Assembly (NCBI RefSeq): GCF_017498525.1
Contig: NZ_CP071796.1
Location: 3,348,001 to 3,412,000, forward strand
Direction: 5' to 3'
DNA from: Ottowia testudinis
GTDB lineage: Bacteria; Pseudomonadota; Gammaproteobacteria; Burkholderiales; Burkholderiaceae_C
DNA: 64,000 nucleotides
The stretch's first letter is position 1. Every line of letters starts with the position of its first letter. The position numbers and the translations under genes were made by a program. Below the pieces are notes generated by a model that worked only from the letters and a program-made list of their open reading frames with translations, was not told the DNA's origin and ran no database searches. This document shows, one piece after another, positions 11,897 to 31,577 of the stretch.

Positions 11897-14023
11897 TCAG
11901 TGATCACTGTCGTTGGGAAATTCGGTCAGCCGGACACCATCAGCGGCCCGCGTCTCGAGGCCGTCCTCCTGGCCTTGGGCCGGGCTGGCGGGCGTCAGTG
12001 GATCGGTGTTGCGGGGCAGCTCGACATGCGGCAGCTGGCCGGCGGGCTGCGGCACGATGGGCGCCGCGTCGTGATCCACGTAGTTCGCCGAGCGCAGCAG
12101 GCTGTCGGCAAGGCTCGCCGTGGCTGGGGTCTGGGCAATCACCTGGGCGGTCTGCACCGCGCTGTATTGCGTCTTCACCGCCACGTCGGTTGCGTCTGCT
12201 TCGAGCTTTCTCGCCTGCGCCTCAAGCACCCGGGCCCGCGCTTGCAGACTCGGGTCTGGCGGCGGTTGGTTGGTGCCCATCGACTCCAGGACATCCTGCT
12301 TGTCGGCCAGGTTGCTGTAGCGCACAAGGACAGTCGGCGGGAGCGGCACGCCAGCCTTCATCATCTCCAACGCCTGCTGGAACTGGCTGTTCTGGAACGT
12401 GACCTGCATCGGCTGCTCGGAGATCACGACGTCGTAGGTGCCCACCGTCACGTCGTTGTAGTACTGGCCCGTGGCCTGGTCGAACTTGTTGATCTCCAGC
12501 AGCTCCTCACTCGGCTTGCCGGTCATCGGATCGGTCTCGGTGATCCGGAAGATGCGGTAGCTGTCGTAGTAGCGCTGGATCAGCTTGAGAATGCGCCTGG
12601 CGAGCAGTTGGCGGGTGTAAGCCAAGTTGTCCAGGGGAATGGCCAGCTGCTGCTGGCTGGCGAACTGCTTGGACTAGATGGCGATGCCGGCCTCGTTCTG
12701 CCCACCGATGCCGCGCATGGCGTCCGGCACCGTCACGTCCCTCAGCGCCTTGTCGGCGCGGTCGATGATCCGGTCGATGCCGGTGGGCACCTGGTTGGGC
12801 TGGATCTTCTGCGGGGGCGTAGAACCCTTTTTGTATTCGACCACCAGGCCAGTTCGTGCGCCGTCTGCCTGCAGGTCCTCCAGCGACATGTTGGTCAGGG
12901 AGTTCTCCTCGACCACCCATCCGCTGTTGGCCGCCGTGTTCACGATGTGGATGTACTGGCTCAGCGCCTTGTTGAGCGCCTCCTGGGGCCCGATGGCGTC
13001 GTCGACCATGCCAACGGTCTTGCCGCGGCGGAAGTAGGCGAAGTACGGCACCACCGTGTAGTGCTCGTACGGGCTGTAGCTGTCGTGCAGCGTGGCGGTG
13101 AGCGTGGTCACCGTCCACTTGACCCGCCGGCGCATCCGCCTGGCACGCAGCGCGCCATTGGCCAGCGCATCGGCAATCGAGTCCTGCGCCATGGTGGCCT
13201 CGACTTGGACGTCACCCGACGCCGGCCAGACGATGCAAGGCGTCAGCTCATAGACGTAGCGTTGCCGATCCAGCACGCGGAATCGCTCCAGGCCATCTTC
13301 CTTCTTGGCGTGGGCGTCCACGAACCCCATGTGATCGCGACTCGCGAACTTGCTGCGCGGCACCTCGTCATCCATGTCGCCGAAGTCGACGCCGGCGTCG
13401 TTGGTCTCGGCGGCCTTCTTGCGCGCGCTCGGGCCGTAGAGCTGGCCGATCTCGTCAAGCGTCAGCCACTTGGTGATGATCACGTCGCCCCATTGGTCGG
13501 GGTCGTAGGCCTTGGAATCCGGGTCAGGCACCACGTCCAGCGGATCGAGATGGTTCACCTCGATCTCGCCCTGGATGTTGGTATCGAAGCTCATGCGGAC
13601 TTCGAAGTAGCCGCGCTGCTGGATCAGCCCGTCGCTGAAAACCTGCGTCTCGTGCCAATGCAGATTGCAAAGGTCGGAAACCTGCATGGCCACCTTCGAG
13701 AGGATCGTTGCCGTTGCCAGGTCAGCGTCCCCGCCGCGCGGCTTGAACGCGATGTCAACCCGGTTGTGCACCTGGTAGCCGATGGCGGAATTGACCGACG
13801 GCTTGATTTGGTTGAACTCGTAGGACGGCCTGCGTTCGCTCGCCAACTTTGCGAGATCGTCAGCGCCCCACTGCCGGCCACCGCCCAGATACATGTCCTC
13901 GCAGCGTGCGGCGTGCGGCAGGTAGTCCAGGTGGCCGCGAGCCTTGCCGTATTCGTAGCGCGCCCAGTTCTCGCGCGCGGCATCGTCGCCTGGGACAGTG
14001 ATGGGAGTGATGCTCATGATCAT
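11897..14023 (-). pseudogene. Phage portal protein gene interrupted by an in-frame TAG
   Basis: The frame from the ATG at 14021-14023 encodes the front of a portal protein of about 700 residues, then meets TAG at 12674-12676 (codon 450). The same frame continues without shift: NEAGIAI-stop-SKQFASQQQLAIPL, then the C-terminal portal half, ending at 11897 (708 residues if read through). A single C-to-T change from CAG (Gln) would create this stop. The start overlaps the terL stop (ATGA). The portal is the ring through which DNA enters the head, so truncation at 449 residues should block assembly unless the amber codon is suppressed. A sequencing error is also possible. Confidence 0.85.
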
Positions 14024-21878: not shown

Positions 21879-22026
21879 CGCCAACCACGCGCGAGAAATC
21901 CATCCTCCAACTCGTCTCTGGGGACAAAGGCAAATCCGGCCGGTCGGTCATCGTGCAGCCACCGATGGACAAGAAGTCACGCTTGGCCATTTCCAGCGTG
22001 TCAATCACAGACAGACGCTTAGCCAT
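21718..22026 (-). CDS. Small phage protein whose 3' part is antisense to the KTSC gene
   Basis: 102 residues starting MAKRLSVIDTLEMAKRDFLS, with GGGAGCGGG upstream and an 8-base overlap with the small membrane protein gene. The first 60 residues look natural (SWRMDFSRVVGAIDDAIEQL). The rest is Arg/Ser/Thr-rich and antisense to the KTSC gene. The C-terminus may have been replaced when the KTSC gene arrived, or only the N-terminal half may be functional. Confidence 0.4.
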   Translation of the reverse strand: MAKRLSVIDTLEMAKRDFLSIGGCTMTDRPDLPLSPETSWRMDFSRVVGAIDDAIEQLVGSARRTDDESPRCSKCPQTPQISTRTRYVRARSDSRTPYRERS

Positions 22027-22204
22027 GGCCCGCTCCCGTCGCCAGCAAATAGCCGGTCCACGCCGCCAGCGCAACGCCCTCCAGCAGGTCAATGGCCAGC
22101 GAGCCGCGCGTGCGGGCTGGTGTCACGTTCAAGCCCAGCCACAGCGTGCGCATCACGATGCCGAACACCAGCAGGCCCAGCATGGTCCAGAGGTACATCC
22201 GCAT
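22019..22204 (-). CDS. Small phage membrane protein
   Basis: 61 residues with a strong AAGGAGG ribosome site. Two hydrophobic segments are seen (about 3-22, MYLWTMLGLLVFGIVMRTLW, and about 39-57, LLEGVALAAWTGYLLATGA), so it should span the inner membrane twice. It lies in the early region away from any endolysin, so a holin role is unlikely on position; function unknown. Confidence 0.65.
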   Translation of the reverse strand: MRMYLWTMLGLLVFGIVMRTLWLGLNVTPARTRGSLAIDLLEGVALAAWTGYLLATGAGHG

Positions 22205-22274
22205 CTAAAAAACCTCCTTCACAGCCCGTAACCCGTGGCAAGATGTATCTCTCAACGACCCAAGGAGCAGCGTC

Positions 22275-22430
22275 ATGGTCACAGCCAAAAAGCCTGTCAA
22301 TGAGCAAACATCCAAGCGCGTTGCCACCGACGCGAGCAAGCTGCTGCGCGATCCCAAATCGTCAGCCGCCGTCAAGCGCGTGGCAGGTTCTGCGCTCACG
22401 CAGACCGCCAACAAGCCGAAGAAAAAATAG
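22275..22430 (+). CDS. Small conserved basic protein (phage accessory gene)
   Basis: 51 residues, MVTAKKPVNEQTSKRVATDA then SKLLRDPKSSAAVKRVAGSA and LTQTANKPKKK. A strong CCAAGGAGCAG ribosome site precedes it. The pattern NExTSKRVAxxASKxLxDPKSS...AGSALTQ is one I recognise from many small proteins of phages and mobile elements, without a known function. Like the KTSC gene it runs against the leftward unit. Confidence 0.7.
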   Translation: MVTAKKPVNEQTSKRVATDASKLLRDPKSSAAVKRVAGSALTQTANKPKKK

Positions 22431-22436
22431 TCCCGC

Positions 22437-22649
22437 CTATTCATCGGCGAGCCTCGTGATCGCCGCGTCCAGCAGCATCCCCGCCGTCTGCGTGCGGCTT
22501 GATGTCTTGCTGCCGGCGAGTTGGTAGGTGCCACCGGGCCGCTCTTCAATGGCCGTCACCGCCACCACTTCGCCAGTCTCGCACCGGGCCAGTAGTTCGC
22601 GCGCATAGCGCAGCGCATCGCTGGACTTGGACAGGGCGACCAGCTTCAC
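22437..22649 (-). CDS. Small phage protein, unknown function
   Basis: 70 residues, MKLVALSKSSDALRYARELL. The centre (GEVVAVTAIEERPGGTYQLA) is beta-like and the ends are helical. Its start overlaps the stop of the 92-residue gene by four bases. Similar short proteins occur in the early regions of other prophages, but no function is known to me. Confidence 0.6.
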   Translation of the reverse strand: MKLVALSKSSDALRYARELLARCETGEVVAVTAIEERPGGTYQLAGSKTSSRTQTAGMLLDAAITRLADE

Positions 22650-22924
22650 GCCGCCACCTCCTGCCGCTGCTCAAAGGCTGCGTTCAGCTCGCGCAGCGCG
22701 GCCAGATAGACCTGCGCCACCTTGACGCCGAAGTCCTCGTGGCTCTTTGAGCGGAAGAGCTGAACGTGCTCCTTTGACCAGTCGCATGCGGCTTGGCGGG
22801 CGAGGTCACGCAGGTCGCGCGTCAGGTCGACTGCGCTGTGCTTGGCTCCGGCGATGAGGGATGCCAGGGGGATGGCGGGCGCGGGCTGGCCTGCATCGAC
22901 CGTGGGGTGATCGGCGCGGCTCAT
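22646..22924 (-). CDS. Small phage protein, unknown function
   Basis: 92 residues. The C-terminal half is a long amphipathic helix (VKVAQVYLAALRELNAAFEQ). It overlaps the AlpA-like gene and the following gene by four bases each, so it is translationally coupled within the early unit. No domain recognised. Confidence 0.6.
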   Translation of the reverse strand: MSRADHPTVDAGQPAPAIPLASLIAGAKHSAVDLTRDLRDLARQAACDWSKEHVQLFRSKSHEDFGVKVAQVYLAALRELNAAFEQRQEVAA

Positions 22925-23178
22925 GCTGCGTCCCGTTGAGCCTGGCGGGCGCGCAGCCAGGCTTGGACTTCGGCTGCGATCCAGCGGGTGCAGCGCAGGC
23001 CATCGCGCACGGGAAGCGGGAAGTCGCCGGCCGCCATCTTGCGGCGGATGCTCGACTCGGACAGGCCGGTGACGGCGATGACCGTGCTGATCTTCAGCAG
23101 AGCCTCGGGGATTTTGAGGCTATCAACGGTCTGGCTTGGGCCGCGACCGCGTTGTGTCTGATGGGTTGCAGCGTGCAC
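22921..23178 (-). CDS. AlpA-family transcriptional regulator
   Basis: 85 residues from a GTG at 23176-23178 that has CAGGAGG at ideal spacing; a longer frame to 23280 would overlap the preceding gene. LLKISTVIAVTGLSESSIRR, KMAAGDFPLPVRDGLRCTRW and IAAEVQAWLRAR are the classic AlpA/MerR-like HTH pattern. These small regulators act on integration or early genes of prophages. It is the first gene of the tightly coupled leftward early unit. Confidence 0.8.
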   Translation of the reverse strand: MHAATHQTQRGRGPSQTVDSLKIPEALLKISTVIAVTGLSESSIRRKMAAGDFPLPVRDGLRCTRWIAAEVQAWLRARQAQRDAA

Positions 23179-23230
23179 TGGGTGCCTCCTGAACGAACTG
23201 GAGGCATGGTGCTTGCCTAATCCGACCCCG

Positions 23231-24172
23231 TCATTCCCCGTCTGCGGGCAGGCAGGCCGGCTTACCGGCAGACGGGGCATTGTGAAGCCACACTTCCCGC
23301 ATTGTCTTTTCCGTTACCTTCACCTGTTTCTCGTTCATCAGTCTCCGGGTGTAGTGACGTGAAAACTCAGATTTGTTTCCCTGATAGTCTTCTGCGTGAG
23401 CAGCCCACTCTTCTCTGATCCAGTCGCGAGCATCGTTTGTTTTTTTGTGCCGACGCTGGGCCAGCTTGGTGTTCAAGTCTGACAACGCTAACCTCTGCAG
23501 CTTGCCGAAATCAAGTGTGGCCGGCTCGCTGGGGCGAACGAATCTCCTCATGCGTTCGACGCGGATGATCTTCTCGCCATCGTTTTTGCTGCCGTCGATA
23601 TAGGCCAAAGCACACTCGTCGAGTTGCGCCAATACGGCTATTGCAGCAACTCGTCGCATGAAGTCAGATAAATCTTCGTCGGGCACCTGTGTGCGGGTTG
23701 CTTCTAATAGTTCTAAGAACATCTCAACCTTGGAGATCAACGCTAAATCCGGCCAGACGGCGTCTGCACTCTCCAGAGGAATGTCGACGCAAATGCGTCC
23801 GGCCCCGAGCATTGCCTTGAAGTCCGGATAGAACGTGAGGTCGAGAAAGTTCTCTGCCTGTTCCCTTACTCCGGGTAGAGCTTCTTCCAACTCTTCAATG
23901 GTCAGATCGCGGCCACCAGAGTCTTCTCCCACCTGGTACAACGTACGCAGCGCATTGACAGCTTCATCCCCGGCATCCCACGCGGATCGCCCGAGAATCC
24001 GTTCGGAGCGCCGCCCCTTCGCAACTATGCGTCGCTCCCCCTTGGGTTCGTCCGAAGGGCCAAAACTTGCAACGAGATCGTAGAAAAGCAGTTTGTGCCG
24101 ACTGCCCTCTACCCAGCCTTCATGCTGGTCAGCAATTGCCGAGGGCGAAGAATTTTTCTTCGAATTGTCCAT
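23231..24172 (-). CDS. Phage protein of unknown function
   Basis: 313 residues from the ATG at 24170-24172 (MDNSKKNSSPSAIADQHEGW); upstream extension to 24220 lacks support. The sequence is hydrophilic, helical and rich in Asp and Glu, with a basic C-terminal third (TKLAQRRHKKTNDARDWIRE, RRLMNEKQVKVTEKTMREVW) that could bind nucleic acid. Its bases look less GC-rich than those of its neighbours. It lies between the AlpA-like gene and the Arc-like repressor gene, in the regulatory section of the prophage. I do not recognise the family. Confidence 0.6.
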   Translation of the reverse strand: MDNSKKNSSPSAIADQHEGWVEGSRHKLLFYDLVASFGPSDEPKGERRIVAKGRRSERILGRSAWDAGDEAVNALRTLYQVGEDSGGRDLTIEELEEALPGVREQAENFLDLTFYPDFKAMLGAGRICVDIPLESADAVWPDLALISKVEMFLELLEATRTQVPDEDLSDFMRRVAAIAVLAQLDECALAYIDGSKNDGEKIIRVERMRRFVRPSEPATLDFGKLQRLALSDLNTKLAQRRHKKTNDARDWIREEWAAHAEDYQGNKSEFSRHYTRRLMNEKQVKVTEKTMREVWLHNAPSAGKPACLPADGE

Positions 24173-24192
24173 TGCGTATGCAAGCCCCTCTA

Positions 24193-24375
24193 ATGTCGGT
24201 CGACCCAGCCCTTCAGCCAAACGGGAGCCAGGAACTCAGCCCGAACGAGCGAATTGGGTATTTCGTCGAGTGGCCGGATCCATACACGTACTTGGTTAAT
24301 CGCTATTTACGCGATCCTGTCCGCTTCGTGGTGGAAGCCGCTGCCGACCTGGTTGCGTCGGTCTTGAAGCGCTGA
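24193..24375 (+). CDS. Possible small ORF in the gap before the Arc-like gene
   Basis: 60 codons, MSVDPALQPNGSQELSPNER followed by IGYFVEWPDPYTYLVNRYLR. The amino-acid mix looks protein-like, but no ribosome site is visible and the last third is antisense to the Arc-like gene. The rest of this 130-base gap (24173-24302) shows nothing else I can name. Confidence 0.25.
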   Translation: MSVDPALQPNGSQELSPNERIGYFVEWPDPYTYLVNRYLRDPVRFVVEAAADLVASVLKR

Positions 24376-24734
24376 ATCGCCAATTCGCACCGAGCAATCT
24401 CAGCGTCGACCTGACTTAATCGCTGAGCCATTTCGGCCAACCCAGTGATCTGATGCCCGGTGATCTTGGCCAAATCCATGCGTAGCTGGAAGACACCACG
24501 CTCGGCCTCCAGGACGCTGCGTTCGACGACGGCTCGCAACAAGTCATCGGCGATGGTGCTCTTGGCTTTTGCCGCCCCAGCAAGCTCCTCGTCTTCAAAG
24601 ACGGATGCCTGCAGGCGGCCAATGATCTCGGCGTTGAGACTCTTTGACGTGCTGTCAGCGGCGGAAACCAACACTTGATGCAAGTCCCTCGGAATGCGCA
24701 ACGTGATCCGGGTGTAGCGGTCTTCATCTTCCAT
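24303..24734 (-). CDS. Arc-type ribbon-helix-helix repressor with C-terminal extension
   Basis: 143 residues from the ATG at 24732-24734. RYTRITLRIPRDLHQVLVSA and STSKSLNAEIIGRLQAS are the Arc/MetJ ribbon-helix-helix pattern (P22 Arc, Mnt). The remaining two thirds is helical (DLLRAVVERSVLEAERGVFQ, AEMAQRLSQVDAEIARCELA) and may form an oligomerising coiled coil. It is divergent from another ribbon-helix-helix gene across an operator-rich gap. No CI-type repressor is seen, so this protein is a candidate lysogeny regulator. Confidence 0.75.
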   Translation of the reverse strand: MEDEDRYTRITLRIPRDLHQVLVSAADSTSKSLNAEIIGRLQASVFEDEELAGAAKAKSTIADDLLRAVVERSVLEAERGVFQLRMDLAKITGHQITGLAEMAQRLSQVDAEIARCELAIQRFKTDATRSAAASTTKRTGSRK

Positions 24735-24840
24735 GCTCCAAATTTTCCACCAAAACGGTGTCAGACCACTTGACACTGAAACGGTGTCTGATGCATGATT
24801 GTGCCACCGACACCAAAACAGTGTCAACCAAGGCAGGCAC
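24735..24840. promoter_or_regulatory. Divergent promoter/operator region (probable prophage switch)
   Basis: Plus-strand promoter: TTGACA at 24770-24775, 18-base spacer, CATGAT at 24794-24799. Minus-strand promoter: TTGACA at 24822-24827, 18-base spacer, CACAAT at 24798-24803. The two -10 boxes overlap, so the promoters should compete. Each -35 region carries GACAC-N7-GTGTC (24772-24788 and 24809-24825). A third GTGTC half-site with the same AAAACG flank lies at 24752-24762 near the Arc-like start. These are likely binding sites for one or both flanking ribbon-helix-helix proteins. Confidence 0.65.
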
Positions 24841-25017
24841 ATGACTGAACTTGAAAAGAATTGGGTGCGCATGACGCTTCGGCTGCCGGACGTGTTGCGG
24901 GATAGAGCCAAAGCGAAGGCTGACGCCCAGCACATCAGCCTGAATAGCTTCATCGTGCAGGCCGTTGCGCGCCGCGTTTCCGCTCCGGCGTCACAGCAGC
25001 CGAAAGGCCAGCCATGA
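24841..25017 (+). CDS. Small ribbon-helix-helix regulator
   Basis: 58 residues from the ATG at 24841, preceded by AAGGCAGG. WVRMTLRLPDVLRDRAKAKA and ISLNSFIVQAVARRV match the Arc-size ribbon-helix-helix fold. It is the first gene of the rightward unit and overlaps the next gene (ATGA). With the Arc-like gene on the other side of the shared operators it resembles the Arc/Mnt immunity region of P22; which protein maintains lysogeny cannot be told from sequence. Confidence 0.75.
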   Translation: MTELEKNWVRMTLRLPDVLRDRAKAKADAQHISLNSFIVQAVARRVSAPASQQPKGQP

Positions 25018-25358
25018 GCACGTCTGCGCTCATGGCCAAGGTCGACATGCCGACGCCGCCCCCCGGCGGTACGGCCGTGCCCGCCTGCTTCAATTCCCTG
25101 ATCACCGACGTGGCCAGCGCCAGCGCCGAGCCGCCGCGCACCGAGCTGGAGCAGCGCATCCTGTCCATGGCACGCGCCGTCCAGCACAAGCCGTTCCGCC
25201 GCTGGCCCGCATGGAGCACTGGCGAGCGCCTGATGGTCGCCCTGGTGCTCGACGACACCGCGGCCCTGAGTAACTTCGGCTTTCGCGTGCTTGAGGCTGT
25301 CGACCGCGTAGAGCTGACGCCAAACCAGCTGATGCGCATCGCGCGGGAGGTCTGCTGA
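25014..25358 (+). CDS. Phage protein of unknown function
   Basis: 114 residues, MSTSALMAKVDMPTPPPGGT. A helical C-terminal half (LEQRILSMARAVQHKPFRRW, ERLMVALVLDDTAALSNFGF) follows a Pro/Gly-rich start. It overlaps the genes on both sides (ATGA and TGATG), so it belongs to the operon led by the ribbon-helix-helix gene. No family recognised. Confidence 0.6.
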   Translation: MSTSALMAKVDMPTPPPGGTAVPACFNSLITDVASASAEPPRTELEQRILSMARAVQHKPFRRWPAWSTGERLMVALVLDDTAALSNFGFRVLEAVDRVELTPNQLMRIAREVC

Positions 25359-25531
25359 TGTTCAGCACCCTCCTCCGCCTGGCCGCCCTGCGTCGCAGCG
25401 CCGGCGGCAGCCACCTCGCCTCTTTGCGGTGGGCCGCTGGCCTGGTCTGGCGCAACGAACAAACCGCGCGCCGCCGGCGCCACCTTGATCGCCGCGCCGA
25501 AGTTGAGCGTGCCGCCCGTCAGCGTCTGTGA
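25358..25531 (+). CDS. Small basic phage protein
   Basis: 57 residues, MFSTLLRLAALRRSAGGSHL then ASLRWAAGLVWRNEQTARRR. It is very Arg-rich. Its start overlaps the preceding stop (TGATG), which is the main support. After it, 25532-25682 holds no gene I can support, only a short TAGCTGA stretch like the host dispersed repeat. Confidence 0.5.
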   Translation: MFSTLLRLAALRRSAGGSHLASLRWAAGLVWRNEQTARRRRHLDRRAEVERAARQRL

Positions 25532-25682
25532 CCTGACGCAGCAGCCCATCACTACAAAATAAATAGCTGACAGACCAATGACTACGTGGACAAGAGGCGT
25601 TTTTGACGCTCAAAATCAATCAGCTGGTGCCGGTGCAGCCTTGCGGCCCGCCATGATCGAGCGCTTGGCCTTGGACATCGCA

Positions 25683-25985
25683 TCACACCCGGCCCAGTTC
25701 CTGGCGGATGGTCTTGCGCACCACATCGGCCAGCGTTTGCCCTTGCGCGAATTGAGCAAGGGCTTCATTCATCAGCGTTTGGTAGCTGCCGCCCGTCAAC
25801 TCGGCGCGCGCCTTGAAAGCGGCCAGCGTGGCGTTGTCCACCCGCATGGTGATGCGCGACTTGCCCACCCGCGCACCGTGCTCGGCCTGCAAGCGCGCCA
25901 GCGCCGGCACCTTCGCCACGGGCAAGGCATCGGTGAAATCGAGATCGGCCAAGCGGGCGTAGTCAGGATCAGAATTGTTGGGCAT
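25683..25985 (-). CDS. brnA: BrnA-family antitoxin
   Basis: 100 residues. The C-terminal half has the BrnA pattern (KSRITMRVDNATLAAFKARA followed by ELTGGSYQTLMNEALAQFA), a ribbon-helix-helix that binds DNA and blocks the BrnT toxin. It overlaps the brnT 3' end by 17 bases, in the usual toxin-first order. The pair lies on the strand opposite to the flanking phage genes, as expected for cargo. Confidence 0.85.
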   Translation of the reverse strand: MPNNSDPDYARLADLDFTDALPVAKVPALARLQAEHGARVGKSRITMRVDNATLAAFKARAELTGGSYQTLMNEALAQFAQGQTLADVVRKTIRQELGRV

Positions 25986-26244
25986 AGCGCCTCCTTTGCG
26001 GTTGGTTGGCCTTCCAGGCCGAAATCAGGCGCGGGGTATCTCCGCGCAGCGTCCACACAACGACCAGCAGGCGCGCCTGCGCTCCCATGCCCAGCGTCAC
26101 GAAGCGCTGCTCGCCTTCGGCGTCCACGTCTTCACGGGTCAGCGCGTAGGGATCGAGCAGCACTTCCTTCGCCTCTTCAAAACCCACGCCATCGTGCCGC
26201 TGACGGTTGCTGGCATCTTTTTCCGGGTCGTACTCCACGTGCAT
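25969..26244 (-). CDS. brnT: BrnT-family toxin
   Basis: 91 residues from the ATG at 26242-26244. VEYDPEKDASNRQRHDGVGF, then EEAKEVLLDPYALTREDVDA and RFVTLGMGAQARLLVVVWTL are diagnostic of BrnT, a RelE-fold ribonuclease that stops translation. The longer frame from 26328 is rejected because it crosses the promoter. No Shine-Dalgarno sequence precedes the ATG, and the predicted transcription start is at or next to it, so the mRNA may be leaderless. Confidence 0.85.
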   Translation of the reverse strand: MHVEYDPEKDASNRQRHDGVGFEEAKEVLLDPYALTREDVDAEGEQRFVTLGMGAQARLLVVVWTLRGDTPRLISAWKANQPQRRRYAQQF

Positions 26245-26280
26245 ATGCACGATCGTATGCACACAAAGCCGGCTTGTCAA
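26239..26280 (-). promoter_or_regulatory. brnTA promoter with palindromic operator over the brnT start
   Basis: Minus strand: TTGACA at 26280-26275, exactly 17 bases, TACGAT at 26257-26252. A perfect 12-base palindrome, GTGCATATGCAC (26239-26250), covers the brnT ATG, and a second GTGCATA half-site overlaps the -10 element. This is a likely site for BrnA autorepression, placed where it would cover the transcription start. Confidence 0.6.
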
Positions 26281-26392
26281 ACCAATTCCTTGACAGCGCC
26301 CCTCAACCAGATCACTGCTTATGACCACCTTTCAACCCGCCCAAGTGCCGCGGCAAGCGCCTCAACTTTCATCCACCACCACAGGAGCTGAT

Positions 26393-26884
26393 ATGCCCAA
26401 TCCCACCCCCATCCTCACCGCCATTGATGCCCAGCACGTCAGCGTGCTCGACCTCTCCAAGGTGCCCACCGATACCCTGCTGCCCATCGTGCAGCGCGCC
26501 ATCGCCGTGGCTTACCAGTGGGGCAATGGCGACATCGATCCCGAATCGGCCGACACGCAGGAACTGCTTGATGGCCTGTCCACTGCCGTGAATGGGCTGG
26601 ACAGTTTGTATAAGCCCGTCGTTCCTGCAGCGGCCTACACCGTGGGCGGCAGCATGCTGGGCCACGGCACCTATCCCGTGTTGCGCAATGGCAAGGTCGA
26701 GCACGTCCGGCGCGACAAGCTCACCGAAACGGAGCTGGTCGCCGTTGAGCGCTGGCTCCAGCACCACGCCGACAGCACCGCACAGCATGCTGCCGAAATC
26801 ACCCGCCGCCGCCAGGAGCTTCTCGAGGACGCTGAAGCAAACCGTGGCTACGTGCCCGCGCCAGCGCCGGACTGGAGGCTGTGA
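26393..26884 (+). CDS. Phage protein of unknown function
   Basis: 163 residues from the ATG at 26393, which has ACAGGAG at good spacing; the frame opens earlier at 26321 without a ribosome site. MPNPTPILTAIDAQHVSVLD, VPTDTLLPIVQRAIAVAYQW. The C-terminal part is a helix with HHADSTAQHAAEITRRRQEL. It overlaps the next gene. I recognise no family. Confidence 0.6.
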   Translation: MPNPTPILTAIDAQHVSVLDLSKVPTDTLLPIVQRAIAVAYQWGNGDIDPESADTQELLDGLSTAVNGLDSLYKPVVPAAAYTVGGSMLGHGTYPVLRNGKVEHVRRDKLTETELVAVERWLQHHADSTAQHAAEITRRRQELLEDAEANRGYVPAPAPDWRL

Positions 26885-27611: not shown

Positions 27612-28190
27612 CTAACGAGGGAGAAAGTAACCCTTGATGCACACCGCGTCGCGCACGGCAATCTGGATGTGATTCTTGCTCCTGAACCCAGCGCCTGGGT
27701 AGGCTTCATCACCTTCATGGAAGCCCGAGCGCACGGTCTGGTAGGACGGCAGGCGTTGCTCTTCGCGAACGTTGTGAGCCTGCTCAATGACTGCCTTGTC
27801 CAGGTAGCGGAACAGTCGATCGCTGCTCTTGCCTTGATTCACCGGCATGTCGATGCCCAGCACCTTCATGTTGGTCGCAAGCACGTTGTGGGCGTCCCTC
27901 AACTCCTTGAGGGCTGGTTGGTCGAAAAGGTTGAGGCACAGACCAAGATCAATCACCGCGCCAATCACTGCGGGCTTCTTGTCCGAGATCTTTTTCCACT
28001 TCATGCGCTCAACAGCAAATGCATGGGCACGCTGTGGATCGTTTTCCCAAAAATAAATGCCGTCGCCAAGCCAGTCGTATGGGTTACGGCTGGCACCCAG
28101 GCTGGCTTTTGGGTCTGTCAAAACCTTGTGGACTGTCTCTTCATCTGTACCGTGGAATCCAAGCACCCAGCTCGGCAGCCGCTGATACAC
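27612..28190 (-). CDS. ADP-ribosyltransferase-like protein (putative toxin)
   Basis: 192 residues. GFHGT near the N-terminus (about 11-15) and YDWLGDGIYFWENDPQRAHA (about 38-57) resemble the nicotinamide-binding His and the aromatic/Gly strand of ADP-ribosyltransferase-like folds (DUF3990-type). The end (SKNHIQIAVRDAVCIKGYFL) fits the closing strand. The catalytic Glu of active enzymes is not clear; GFHEG near residue 155 is a candidate. It follows a small gene by three bases on the strand opposite to the phage genes. A toxin or phage-defence role is inferred. Confidence 0.55.
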   Translation of the reverse strand: MYQRLPSWVLGFHGTDEETVHKVLTDPKASLGASRNPYDWLGDGIYFWENDPQRAHAFAVERMKWKKISDKKPAVIGAVIDLGLCLNLFDQPALKELRDAHNVLATNMKVLGIDMPVNQGKSSDRLFRYLDKAVIEQAHNVREEQRLPSYQTVRSGFHEGDEAYPGAGFRSKNHIQIAVRDAVCIKGYFLPR

Positions 28191-30112: not shown

Positions 30113-30345
30113 GCGACCTCACGCTCTCCCCTGACGAGATCGCAGCCATCACGGGCTACCGGTCTTCAACGCGTCAGTTGAATCAGTTGCATGCACGCGG
30201 TTTCGTGCGCGCCTACATCGGCCCGCGTGGCGTGGTGCTGGAGCGCGCCCACTACGAAGCGGTGTGCCGGGGCGAGTACGACAAGCGACCCGAGCGCAAA
30301 GCCGCGAACCTGGACTTCCTGCGTGTGGGGCGAAGCGTCGCATGA
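30109..30345 (+). CDS. DUF4224-like protein
   Basis: 78 residues with GAAGGAGGAG before the ATG. LTLSPDEIAAITGYRSSTRQ and LNQLHARGFVRAYIGPRGVV match the DUF4224 family, small HTH-like proteins encoded next to phage integrases and possibly acting as excision factors. It overlaps the 135-residue gene and the integrase start by four bases each. Confidence 0.75.
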   Translation: MSDLTLSPDEIAAITGYRSSTRQLNQLHARGFVRAYIGPRGVVLERAHYEAVCRGEYDKRPERKAANLDFLRVGRSVA

Positions 30346-31433
30346 TCCGGCTGCGCGACAGGCCCGACGGCCTTCCGTTCCGCGTGTATGAGCGCCACGG
30401 CAAGCGCGTCTACAGCATCGGCTACAAGCTGCCGAACGGCCGGTGGGCCTGGCGCCTGAACTGCGACTCCGACGATGCCGCCGCGATCCGCGCGCTGCGC
30501 GCCGATGCGATCACCCGCGCCGCTCAGACCATGCGCCCCGAGCCGATCGGCAGCTTCGAGGCCTTGGTCAAGGGGTGGTTCCAATGGCAGGACGATCTCC
30601 CCATGTCGTCGGCAGACCGACGAGCCGAGTCGACGCTGCGCGAGAACCGCAACGAGGCGAAAAACCTGGTGCGCGCCTGGGGCACGTTCGAGCCGGTCGA
30701 CATCTCGAAGACGATGGGCTACGAGTATCTGGATGCCTGCGCCGCCACCCGGCCCGAGAAGGGCAACAAGGAGATGGCGCTGGCCAGCGTGATCCTCGAA
30801 TGGGGCGTCCGCAAGGGCTGGCTCAGCGAGAACCCATTGCGCGGCCTGCGCAAGAACCGGGTCAAGCGAACGCGCCGCTATGTCGAAGACGCCGATCTGG
30901 CACTGGCCGTCGAGGTCGGCCGGGCCGCGGGAGGCAGTCGACACATCGTCGCCCTTGCCCTCAAAACCGCATGGCTGTGCGTTCGCCGATCAGTGGAGGT
31001 CCGCTCCATCACGCGCGCCAGCATCACGGCAGACGGCATGGTGTGGGGAGACGGCAAGAACCACGACAAGCCGCCCGTGCTGATCGCCTGGTCGCCCGAG
31101 CTGCGCGCCACTATCGACGAAGCGTTGGCGATCAAGCGCAATCACGTCGCTGGCACGCTTTACCTGTTCGGCAACCTGCGCGGTCAGCCGTACACCAAGG
31201 GCGGCTGGAAGGCTGTTCTGGACGATCTGATGAAGGACTGCGAGGCAGAGGCAGAGAAGCGGAAGATCTGCTTCCAGCGGTTCAACCTGCAAGACTGCCG
31301 GCCGAAGGCGGTCAGCGACAAGCTGGAGCGCGGCGACACCGACACCAAGGATGCGGCTGGCCATACCACTGACAAGATGATCGGGCAGGTTTATGACCGC
31401 CGGAAAATGAAAAAGGCCACCCCAGCGGGGTAG
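30342..31433 (+). CDS. int: Phage tyrosine integrase
   Basis: 363 residues. The catalytic domain shows LCVRRSVEVRSIT (first Arg), FNLQDCRPKAVSDKL (second Arg) and AAGHTTDKMIGQVYDRRK (His and the Tyr nucleophile). At the place of the usual HxxR the sequence is QDCR, so the His is replaced by Gln. The N-terminal third has an arm-binding-like stretch (RVYSIGYKLPNGRWAWRLNC) and a core-binding helical region. It is the last prophage gene, 68 bases from tRNA-Asp, its likely target. Confidence 0.9.
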   Translation: MIRLRDRPDGLPFRVYERHGKRVYSIGYKLPNGRWAWRLNCDSDDAAAIRALRADAITRAAQTMRPEPIGSFEALVKGWFQWQDDLPMSSADRRAESTLRENRNEAKNLVRAWGTFEPVDISKTMGYEYLDACAATRPEKGNKEMALASVILEWGVRKGWLSENPLRGLRKNRVKRTRRYVEDADLALAVEVGRAAGGSRHIVALALKTAWLCVRRSVEVRSITRASITADGMVWGDGKNHDKPPVLIAWSPELRATIDEALAIKRNHVAGTLYLFGNLRGQPYTKGGWKAVLDDLMKDCEAEAEKRKICFQRFNLQDCRPKAVSDKLERGDTDTKDAAGHTTDKMIGQVYDRRKMKKATPAG

Positions 31434-31500: not shown

Positions 31501-31577
31501 TGGCGGAGTGGACGGGACTCGAACCCGCGACCCCCGGCGTGACAGGCCGGTATTCTAACCGACTGAACTACCACTCC
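31501..31577 (-). tRNA. tRNA-Asp (GUC), prophage attachment site
   Basis: 77 bases with encoded CCA. Acceptor stem GGAGTGG/CCACTCC, anticodon loop CTGTCAC (GUC), T-loop GGTTCGAGTCC. Its 3' end faces the integrase, the usual geometry for a phage that integrates into a tRNA 3' end and restores it. The matching attL copy must lie left of the window. Confidence 0.95.

Follow-up and report, generated by a model that had tools for sequence, protein, structure and literature searches.

The closest described relative of the region analysed here is immI, the secondary immunity region of phage P22. In the P22 record the genes mnt and arc are transcribed divergently from an interval of ~90 bp that contains the Arc and Mnt operators; the two promoters overlap and ant follows arc. 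Two sources (PMC8022706; PMC11016777) describe Mnt as the repressor of arc and ant, and Arc as repressing mnt and moderating ant. AmrZ of Pseudomonas aeruginosa is a further Arc/Mnt-like ribbon-helix-helix (RHH) protein, in this case a host regulator with other operators and targets than the pair described below. In the OR region of the lambda CI/Cro system, three like operators common to two proteins are located between divergent promoters. A literature search made mostly outside subscription papers returned no description of a GACAC-operator class or of an Arc/Mnt switch lacking CI; the prophage modules with a divergent regulator and a small protein that are treated in PMC10432266 involve other proteins.

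We analysed a 64 kb stretch of the Ottowia testudinis genome (the window), in which the segment 24735–24840 forms the entire gap separating two divergent RHH genes, Arc1 and Arc2. The region quite probably belongs to the same kind of repressor system as P22 immI (mnt/arc), with two RHH genes in divergent orientation. As in immI, a long and a short RHH gene (143 and 58 aa here) diverge from points ~90–110 bp apart and, at the sequence level, promoters face each other and overlap, operators lie between the genes and a TTGACA is present on the short-gene side; an antirepressor gene follows the short gene in many relatives, though not in the window. The region departs from immI in four respects: one operator sequence occurs three times where P22 has separate Arc and Mnt operators; the prophage of the window has no recognisable antirepressor, the gene that gives immI its function; immI is secondary to a CI/C2-type immunity, whereas this prophage yields no CI match with five models; and an AlpA gene lies beyond Arc1. 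The pair may work much as CI and Cro do in lambda, but both of its proteins are RHH rather than helix-turn-helix proteins.

Arc1 (24303–24734, minus strand) occupies the Mnt position and consists of an N-terminal RHH head (Pfam Arc, 4e-4; phrog_795, 8e-10; alignment) followed by a long helical C-terminal part, as indicated by alignment and model. The AlphaFold model of a single Arc1 chain (pLDDT 72.5, pTM 0.45) contains long helices and no strand, an outcome that may be expected when an obligate dimer is modelled as one chain. The label of phrog_795, the best PHROG match of Arc1, is the one carried by Mnt in the P22 record, and phrog_2685 is labelled likewise; the common label gives just a hint of kinship between Arc1 and Mnt. 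Arc2 (24841–25017, plus strand), in the Arc position, is an RHH protein according to Pfam (HicB, 4e-7; Arc, 8e-5). The DNA-reading residues, which we take to be Arc positions 9, 11 and 13 in the numbering of the Arc literature, are R-T-R in both proteins.

The first-pass annotation had described GACAC-N7-GTGTC operators and facing TTGACA promoters, with overlapping −10 boxes and with −35 boxes embedded in the dyads, between two RHH genes, and this description holds throughout. Pfam places both flanking genes among RHH families (Arc/HicB). Two exact dyads, O2 (24772–24788, plus strand, GACACTGAAACGGTGTC) and O3 (24809–24825, plus strand, GACACCAAAACAGTGTC), are found in the segment and no others in the 64 kb, which is beyond chance: 100 dinucleotide shuffles of the window contained a mean of 0.04 exact dyads per 64 kb and never reached two. 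A third dyad, O1 (24746–24762, plus strand, TCCACCAAAACGGTGTC), of degenerate form TCCAC-N7-GTGTC with two arm mismatches, was overlooked in the first reading; it lies 26 bp away from O2 and 11 bp from the Arc1 start codon, within the 5' leader of the left transcript. With 30 sites of at most two mismatches in the window against 29.6 expected, O1 by itself is at chance level, and it is counted as an operator because a degenerate O1-like site recurs at the same place in most loci with an R-T-R head. By the same count no further dyads stand out elsewhere in the window, so that any regulation of lytic genes would have to be exerted via the two operons.

A promoter scan identified two promoter-like sites in the segment, P_Arc2 (24770–24799, plus strand, TTGACA-18-CATGAT) and P_Arc1 (24798–24827, minus strand, TTGACA-18-CACAAT). 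Their −10 hexamers, each with just four of six consensus matches, overlap by 2 bp (24798–24799), and four bases of each −35 box also belong to a dyad half-site; four promoter-like sites are present in 22000–26400, compared with a shuffle mean of 0.7. When transcription starts are assumed ~7 bases past each −10 box, O2 overlaps the −35 box of the right promoter and about +4 to +20 of the left transcript, and O3 overlaps the −35 box of the left promoter and about +4 to +20 of the right transcript.

The correspondence between protein heads and operators was assessed in Arc1 relatives gathered by protein similarity, and thus not picked by operator, with the heads read by means of a profile of the RHH part. 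From 77 loci, 20 without a head or start readable by the profile (L090–L092, L095–L102, L104–L107, L150–L152, L155 and L159) and seven duplicates were removed, leaving 50 distinct regions. In 31 of the 35 R-T-R regions, some of which are near-copies, two or more GACAC dyads with up to two mismatches each are present, against none of the 15 regions with other heads (Fisher, 2e-9, uncorrected for kinship). The four R-T-R exceptions are L112 and L113, with diverged TCACC/GGTGG-like sites, L086, which is degenerate, and L154, which encodes a different-looking RHH protein. At least two GCCTT/GCCTC/GGCTT dyads are found in all five K-A-R regions and in one of two R-A-R regions (6/7), and in none of the 43 others. 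A scan of named genomes returned 24 loci, of which 14 were new; at least two GACAC dyads occur in 12/12 of the new R-T-R regions and in 0/2 of the new K-A-R regions, both of which have two or more GCCTY-type dyads. The Arc1 protein of an O. thiooxydans prophage that is syntenic with the one in the window is 49% identical to the Arc1 of the window, yet has a K-A-R head and GCCTT-type dyads, so that head and operator differ together between the two Ottowia sister prophages.

By these comparisons the operator half-site changes with the residues at Arc positions 9, 11 and 13. In PMC3325190 the K-V-R head of AmrZ contacts GGC half-sites, which parallels, as an independent fit, the GCC/GGC preference of the K-A-R relatives. 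Arc1 thus very likely binds the GACAC dyads directly. For Arc2 the evidence is suggestive, and its binding to the same dyads is likely but less secure, since its head is the more variable of the two. Reading by hand gave R at residue 9 of Arc2 for 24 of 30 R-T-R loci and for eight of 12 new ones, and K for three of five K-A-R/R-A-R loci, and heads such as T-T-R, P-V-R and H-S-R also occur; for these counts L121 and L125 were read from copies, L143 was excluded as unclear and no short RHH gene was found in L127, L140, L145 and L154. The family may offer a natural RHH protein-DNA code, in which R-T-R goes with GACAC and K-A-R with GCCTY.

Starting from the DNA, IMG/VR was scanned for pairs of these dyads spaced 8–32 bases apart, which yielded 64 stretches. 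Of these, 28, some being near-copies, have an RITLR-type RHH gene starting within 260 bp, and 28 of the remaining 36 look by eye like tandem arrays. A control with permuted half-sites gave six stretches, none with an RITLR-type RHH gene by eye. Of 27 loci examined closely, 24 have, by eye, a second and short RHH gene opposite the first; L014 has an apparent helix-turn-helix gene in that position, and no facing short RHH gene was found in L041 and L052. Three sites are usual, with an O1–O2 spacing of 27 bp in 18 of 29 three-site R-T-R regions and an O2–O3 spacing of 28 to 37 bp across all 29. TTGACA is present at the right promoter in 31/31 R-T-R loci with the operator pair, although its GACA lies in the dyad used to choose the loci and just the TT is added evidence. 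At the left promoter the complete hexamer occurs in 3/31 loci, the window among them, so that two consensus −35 boxes are a trait of the window more than of the class. The −10 boxes match at four or more of six positions in 15 (left) and 17 (right) of the 31 loci.

Among the relatives, 12 of 18 downstream genes have antirepressor-type domains over the cut-off (P22_AR_N, pRha, ANT, KilA-N, AntA or Bro-N), where one gene was taken from each of 18 of the 25 listed loci, partly for its antirepressor look; the other six comprise L031 (below the cut-off), L023 (T5orf172) and four without a domain. A search of viral_contigs with Arc1 alone returned four relatives, and with Arc2 alone none. Among phage records Arc1 as the query retrieved one and an N-terminal consensus 12, and in all four named phages examined among these 12 an antirepressor, Rha or KilA-N gene lies on the short-gene side. 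These phages (PS-1, vB_PkoS_Pkon1, TCUAN1 and phiAX1) have a layout like that of the window; the heads of PS-1 (R-Q-R), TCUAN1 (Q-K-R) and phiAX1 (Q-H-R) differ from R-T-R, and vB_PkoS_Pkon1 combines an R-T-R head with two dyads that each contain one mismatch. Hosts of the relatives include Comamonadaceae, Acetobacteraceae, Vibrio, Stutzerimonas and Oceanisphaera.

HTH_3 or Peptidase_S24 scores over the cut-off somewhere in 19 of 28 virus records, a count in which Peptidase_S24 was searched in 26, the records may be fragments, some are near-copies and some HTH_3 matches are perhaps Cro or other genes. Given the P22-like layout, the antirepressors beyond Arc2 in many members and the CI-type domains elsewhere in these 19 records, the class of relatives is immI-like, and the promoter region of the window joins a widespread class of such regions. 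The first-pass annotation had set an Arc-only layout apart from the usual CI/Cro arrangement; that contrast is not supported as drawn, given the example of P22 and the CI-type domains that often accompany the relatives, and a description of the region as a switch without precedent was downgraded, the mnt and arc-ant arrangement of immI being the precedent.

The segment is part of a 37.4-kb prophage flanked by a 48-bp repeat in tRNA-Asp, one copy of which is located at 31501–31548 (plus strand) and the other (attL) at window coordinate −5859. An integrase-like gene adjoins the attachment site (30264–31433, plus strand); it was recognised by eye and place and has no Pfam integrase match. On the Arc1 side the leftward unit, on the minus strand, continues with a 313-aa ORF with no matches to any family (23231–24172) and an AlpA-type gene with an inferred GTG start (22921–23127; Pfam Phage_AlpA, 5e-10; phrog_66, 5e-10, labelled excisionase and transcriptional regulator). 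Two small ORFs follow, one of 92 aa that overlaps AlpA (22646–22924) and a final one of 70 aa without a match among the fetched loci (22437–22649), and then a terminator-like hairpin with a T run (22432–22451, minus strand), a weak signal with six such sites against 4.4 expected; beyond it lie more small ORFs and the replication genes. A 51-aa ORF (22275–22430, plus strand) separates the AlpA unit from the replication operon, at the place where a relative has a cro/cI pair. On the Arc2 side Arc2 is followed rightward by two overlapping small ORFs of 114 aa (25014–25358, plus strand; overlapping Arc2 by 4 nt, no Pfam match, phrog_22116 of unknown function at 4e-4) and 57 aa (25358–25531, plus strand; similar frames in several relatives), a BrnT/BrnA pair, several unknowns and the integrase-like gene. 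The BrnT/BrnA toxin-antitoxin pair (25683–26328) lies on the opposite (minus) strand within this cluster, and a further minus-strand ORF (27612–28190) matches phrog_14664 (unknown function, 6e-34) and, weakly, PADLOC PD-T4-9_A. The left end of the prophage, beyond the window (L007), carries a HigB-type toxin gene with an adjoining ORF (L007 14491–15253) and a Fic-domain gene (L007 16052–16711; partial-length match to PADLOC SoFic, 2e-14), among others. The portal gene, one long ORF in two related prophages, is here two minus-strand ORFs (11897–12625 and 12674–14023) split by an in-frame stop at 12626–12674, which is either a real defect or a sequencing error.

No CI-type repressor had been visible in the first-pass annotation, which saw the prophage without its left part and allowed for a classical repressor there. 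The left end was fetched, and no CI is present among its scanned ORFs, so that five Pfam models (HTH_3, HTH_31, Peptidase_S24, Phage_CI_repr and YdaS) are now without a match across the whole 37.4-kb prophage, with the best 150 of 208 candidates scored in the HTH_31 search of this genome. The 121-aa ORF adjoining HigB has no Pfam match, and no antirepressor domain was found in the Pfam-scanned ORFs on the Arc2 side. The sister prophage of O. thiooxydans (genome G012, whose locus matches L168) was scanned over ~27.7–60 kb of its contig and likewise gave no match with these models when the best 150 of 170 (HTH_3) and of 246 (HTH_31) candidates were scored; Pfam was run on seven of its genes. The gene order is common to both prophages, Arc1 being followed by one ORF, then AlpA, then another small ORF, with 64% identity over 77 aa between the AlpA proteins and 47% over 74 aa between the 92-aa ORF and its counterpart. 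Among the fetched loci compared, AlpA stands beside the Arc pair only in the window and in O. thiooxydans (L002, L009 and L109), L045 having a weak AlpA-like match several kilobases from its pair, and Arc1 of this family occurs in two of the 29 Ottowia genomes, that of the window included. A related Paracidovorax konjaci phage (L077) has a cro and cI pair between the replication genes and arc1, where the Ottowia pair has other genes, and two further Arc pairs (G451 and G427) lie within 2–4 kb of a CI-type gene.

From these sites and genes, and from their conservation and covariation, we infer how the region might bind its proteins, fire and act in lysogeny. Arc1 and Arc2 would each insert a two-stranded β-ribbon into the GACAC/GTGTC half-sites. 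Protein on either O2 or O3 should hinder both promoters, as each of these sites covers the −35 box of one promoter and the beginning of the transcript from the other, and O1 would be an extra site within the Arc1 leader. The right promoter probably fires unless held off by Arc1, since its perfect −35 box is kept in relatives. By analogy with Mnt, Arc1 would silence this promoter, and with it the Arc2 operon, in the lysogen, and Arc2, once expressed, would lower both promoters. The Arc2 operon of many relatives carries an antirepressor as its payload, which would presumably act on a CI repressor encoded elsewhere. In the prophage of the window and its sister the pair probably acts on the early programme of the phage itself, given that no antirepressor or CI is recognisable and that AlpA follows Arc1. 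The polarity could also be reversed, and AlpA on the Arc1 side would suit a lytic left operon.

The reading of the region as an Arc-like switch is supported, and the two promoters, two RHH genes and common operators of the lysogeny switch proposed in the first pass all stand; that Arc-like proteins alone run it was deduced from an absence. The sister prophage of the same genus likewise has no CI match. It is possible, and we propose it tentatively, that lysis or lysogeny in both Ottowia prophages is decided by the RHH pair alone, with Arc1 and Arc2 standing in for CI and Cro and with AlpA relaying the decision to the excision and replication genes. The lack of any CI/Cro-type match to the five models in either prophage, the cro and cI pair of the P. 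konjaci phage at a place where both have other genes and the gene order common to the two point in this direction. However, absence in profile searches that scored the best 150 of 170, 208 and 246 candidates is not proof, the ORF beside HigB and several early genes belong to no family, the terminator-like hairpin at 22432 may divide AlpA from the replication genes and the arrangement is seen in only two prophages. An immI-type module of Ottowia might, on a similarly tentative footing, have lost its antirepressor and CI, gained the AlpA operon and become the only switch, bistable through two RHH proteins that compete for three like operators, with head and operators changing together between the sisters. 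If the pair is indeed the sole switch, a side-switch may have become the main switch in this prophage and one relative, and in any case two prophages are named in which CI-less phage immunity is directly testable.

A remnant immI that has lost its antirepressor and CI, its remaining role in a decaying prophage being the control of accessory genes alone, is a less likely account. The scanned Arc2-side genes without an antirepressor, the split portal gene and the example of phage L, which according to PMC8022706 retains just a poorly conserved mnt homologue, are consistent with such decay, but the RHH genes, promoter-like sites and operators are all preserved and the K-A-R sister keeps a matched head and operator, which argues for selection. 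A control region for a toxin-antitoxin or partition system rather than for immunity is highly improbable, for although HicB and CopG antitoxin profiles match and PHROG/Pfam labels mention HicB and partition, toxin-antitoxin control was downgraded because Pfam recognises no toxin in the gene that follows Arc2, antirepressors occupy that position in many relatives and the P22 record puts the partition label on Mnt too.

Some variation in the number and arrangement of the dyads was also observed. Many viral contigs (L011, L012, L020–L022, L024, L044, L050, L051, L069, L070 and others) contain head-to-tail arrays of GACAC-N7-GTGTC-like sites repeated every ~22–23 bp, with no Arc pair on a quick look. 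Four dyads instead of three precede Arc1 in L127 and L178. In L116 (the same region as L005) and L120 the O1–O2 spacing is 37 bp instead of 27 bp, about one helical turn more.
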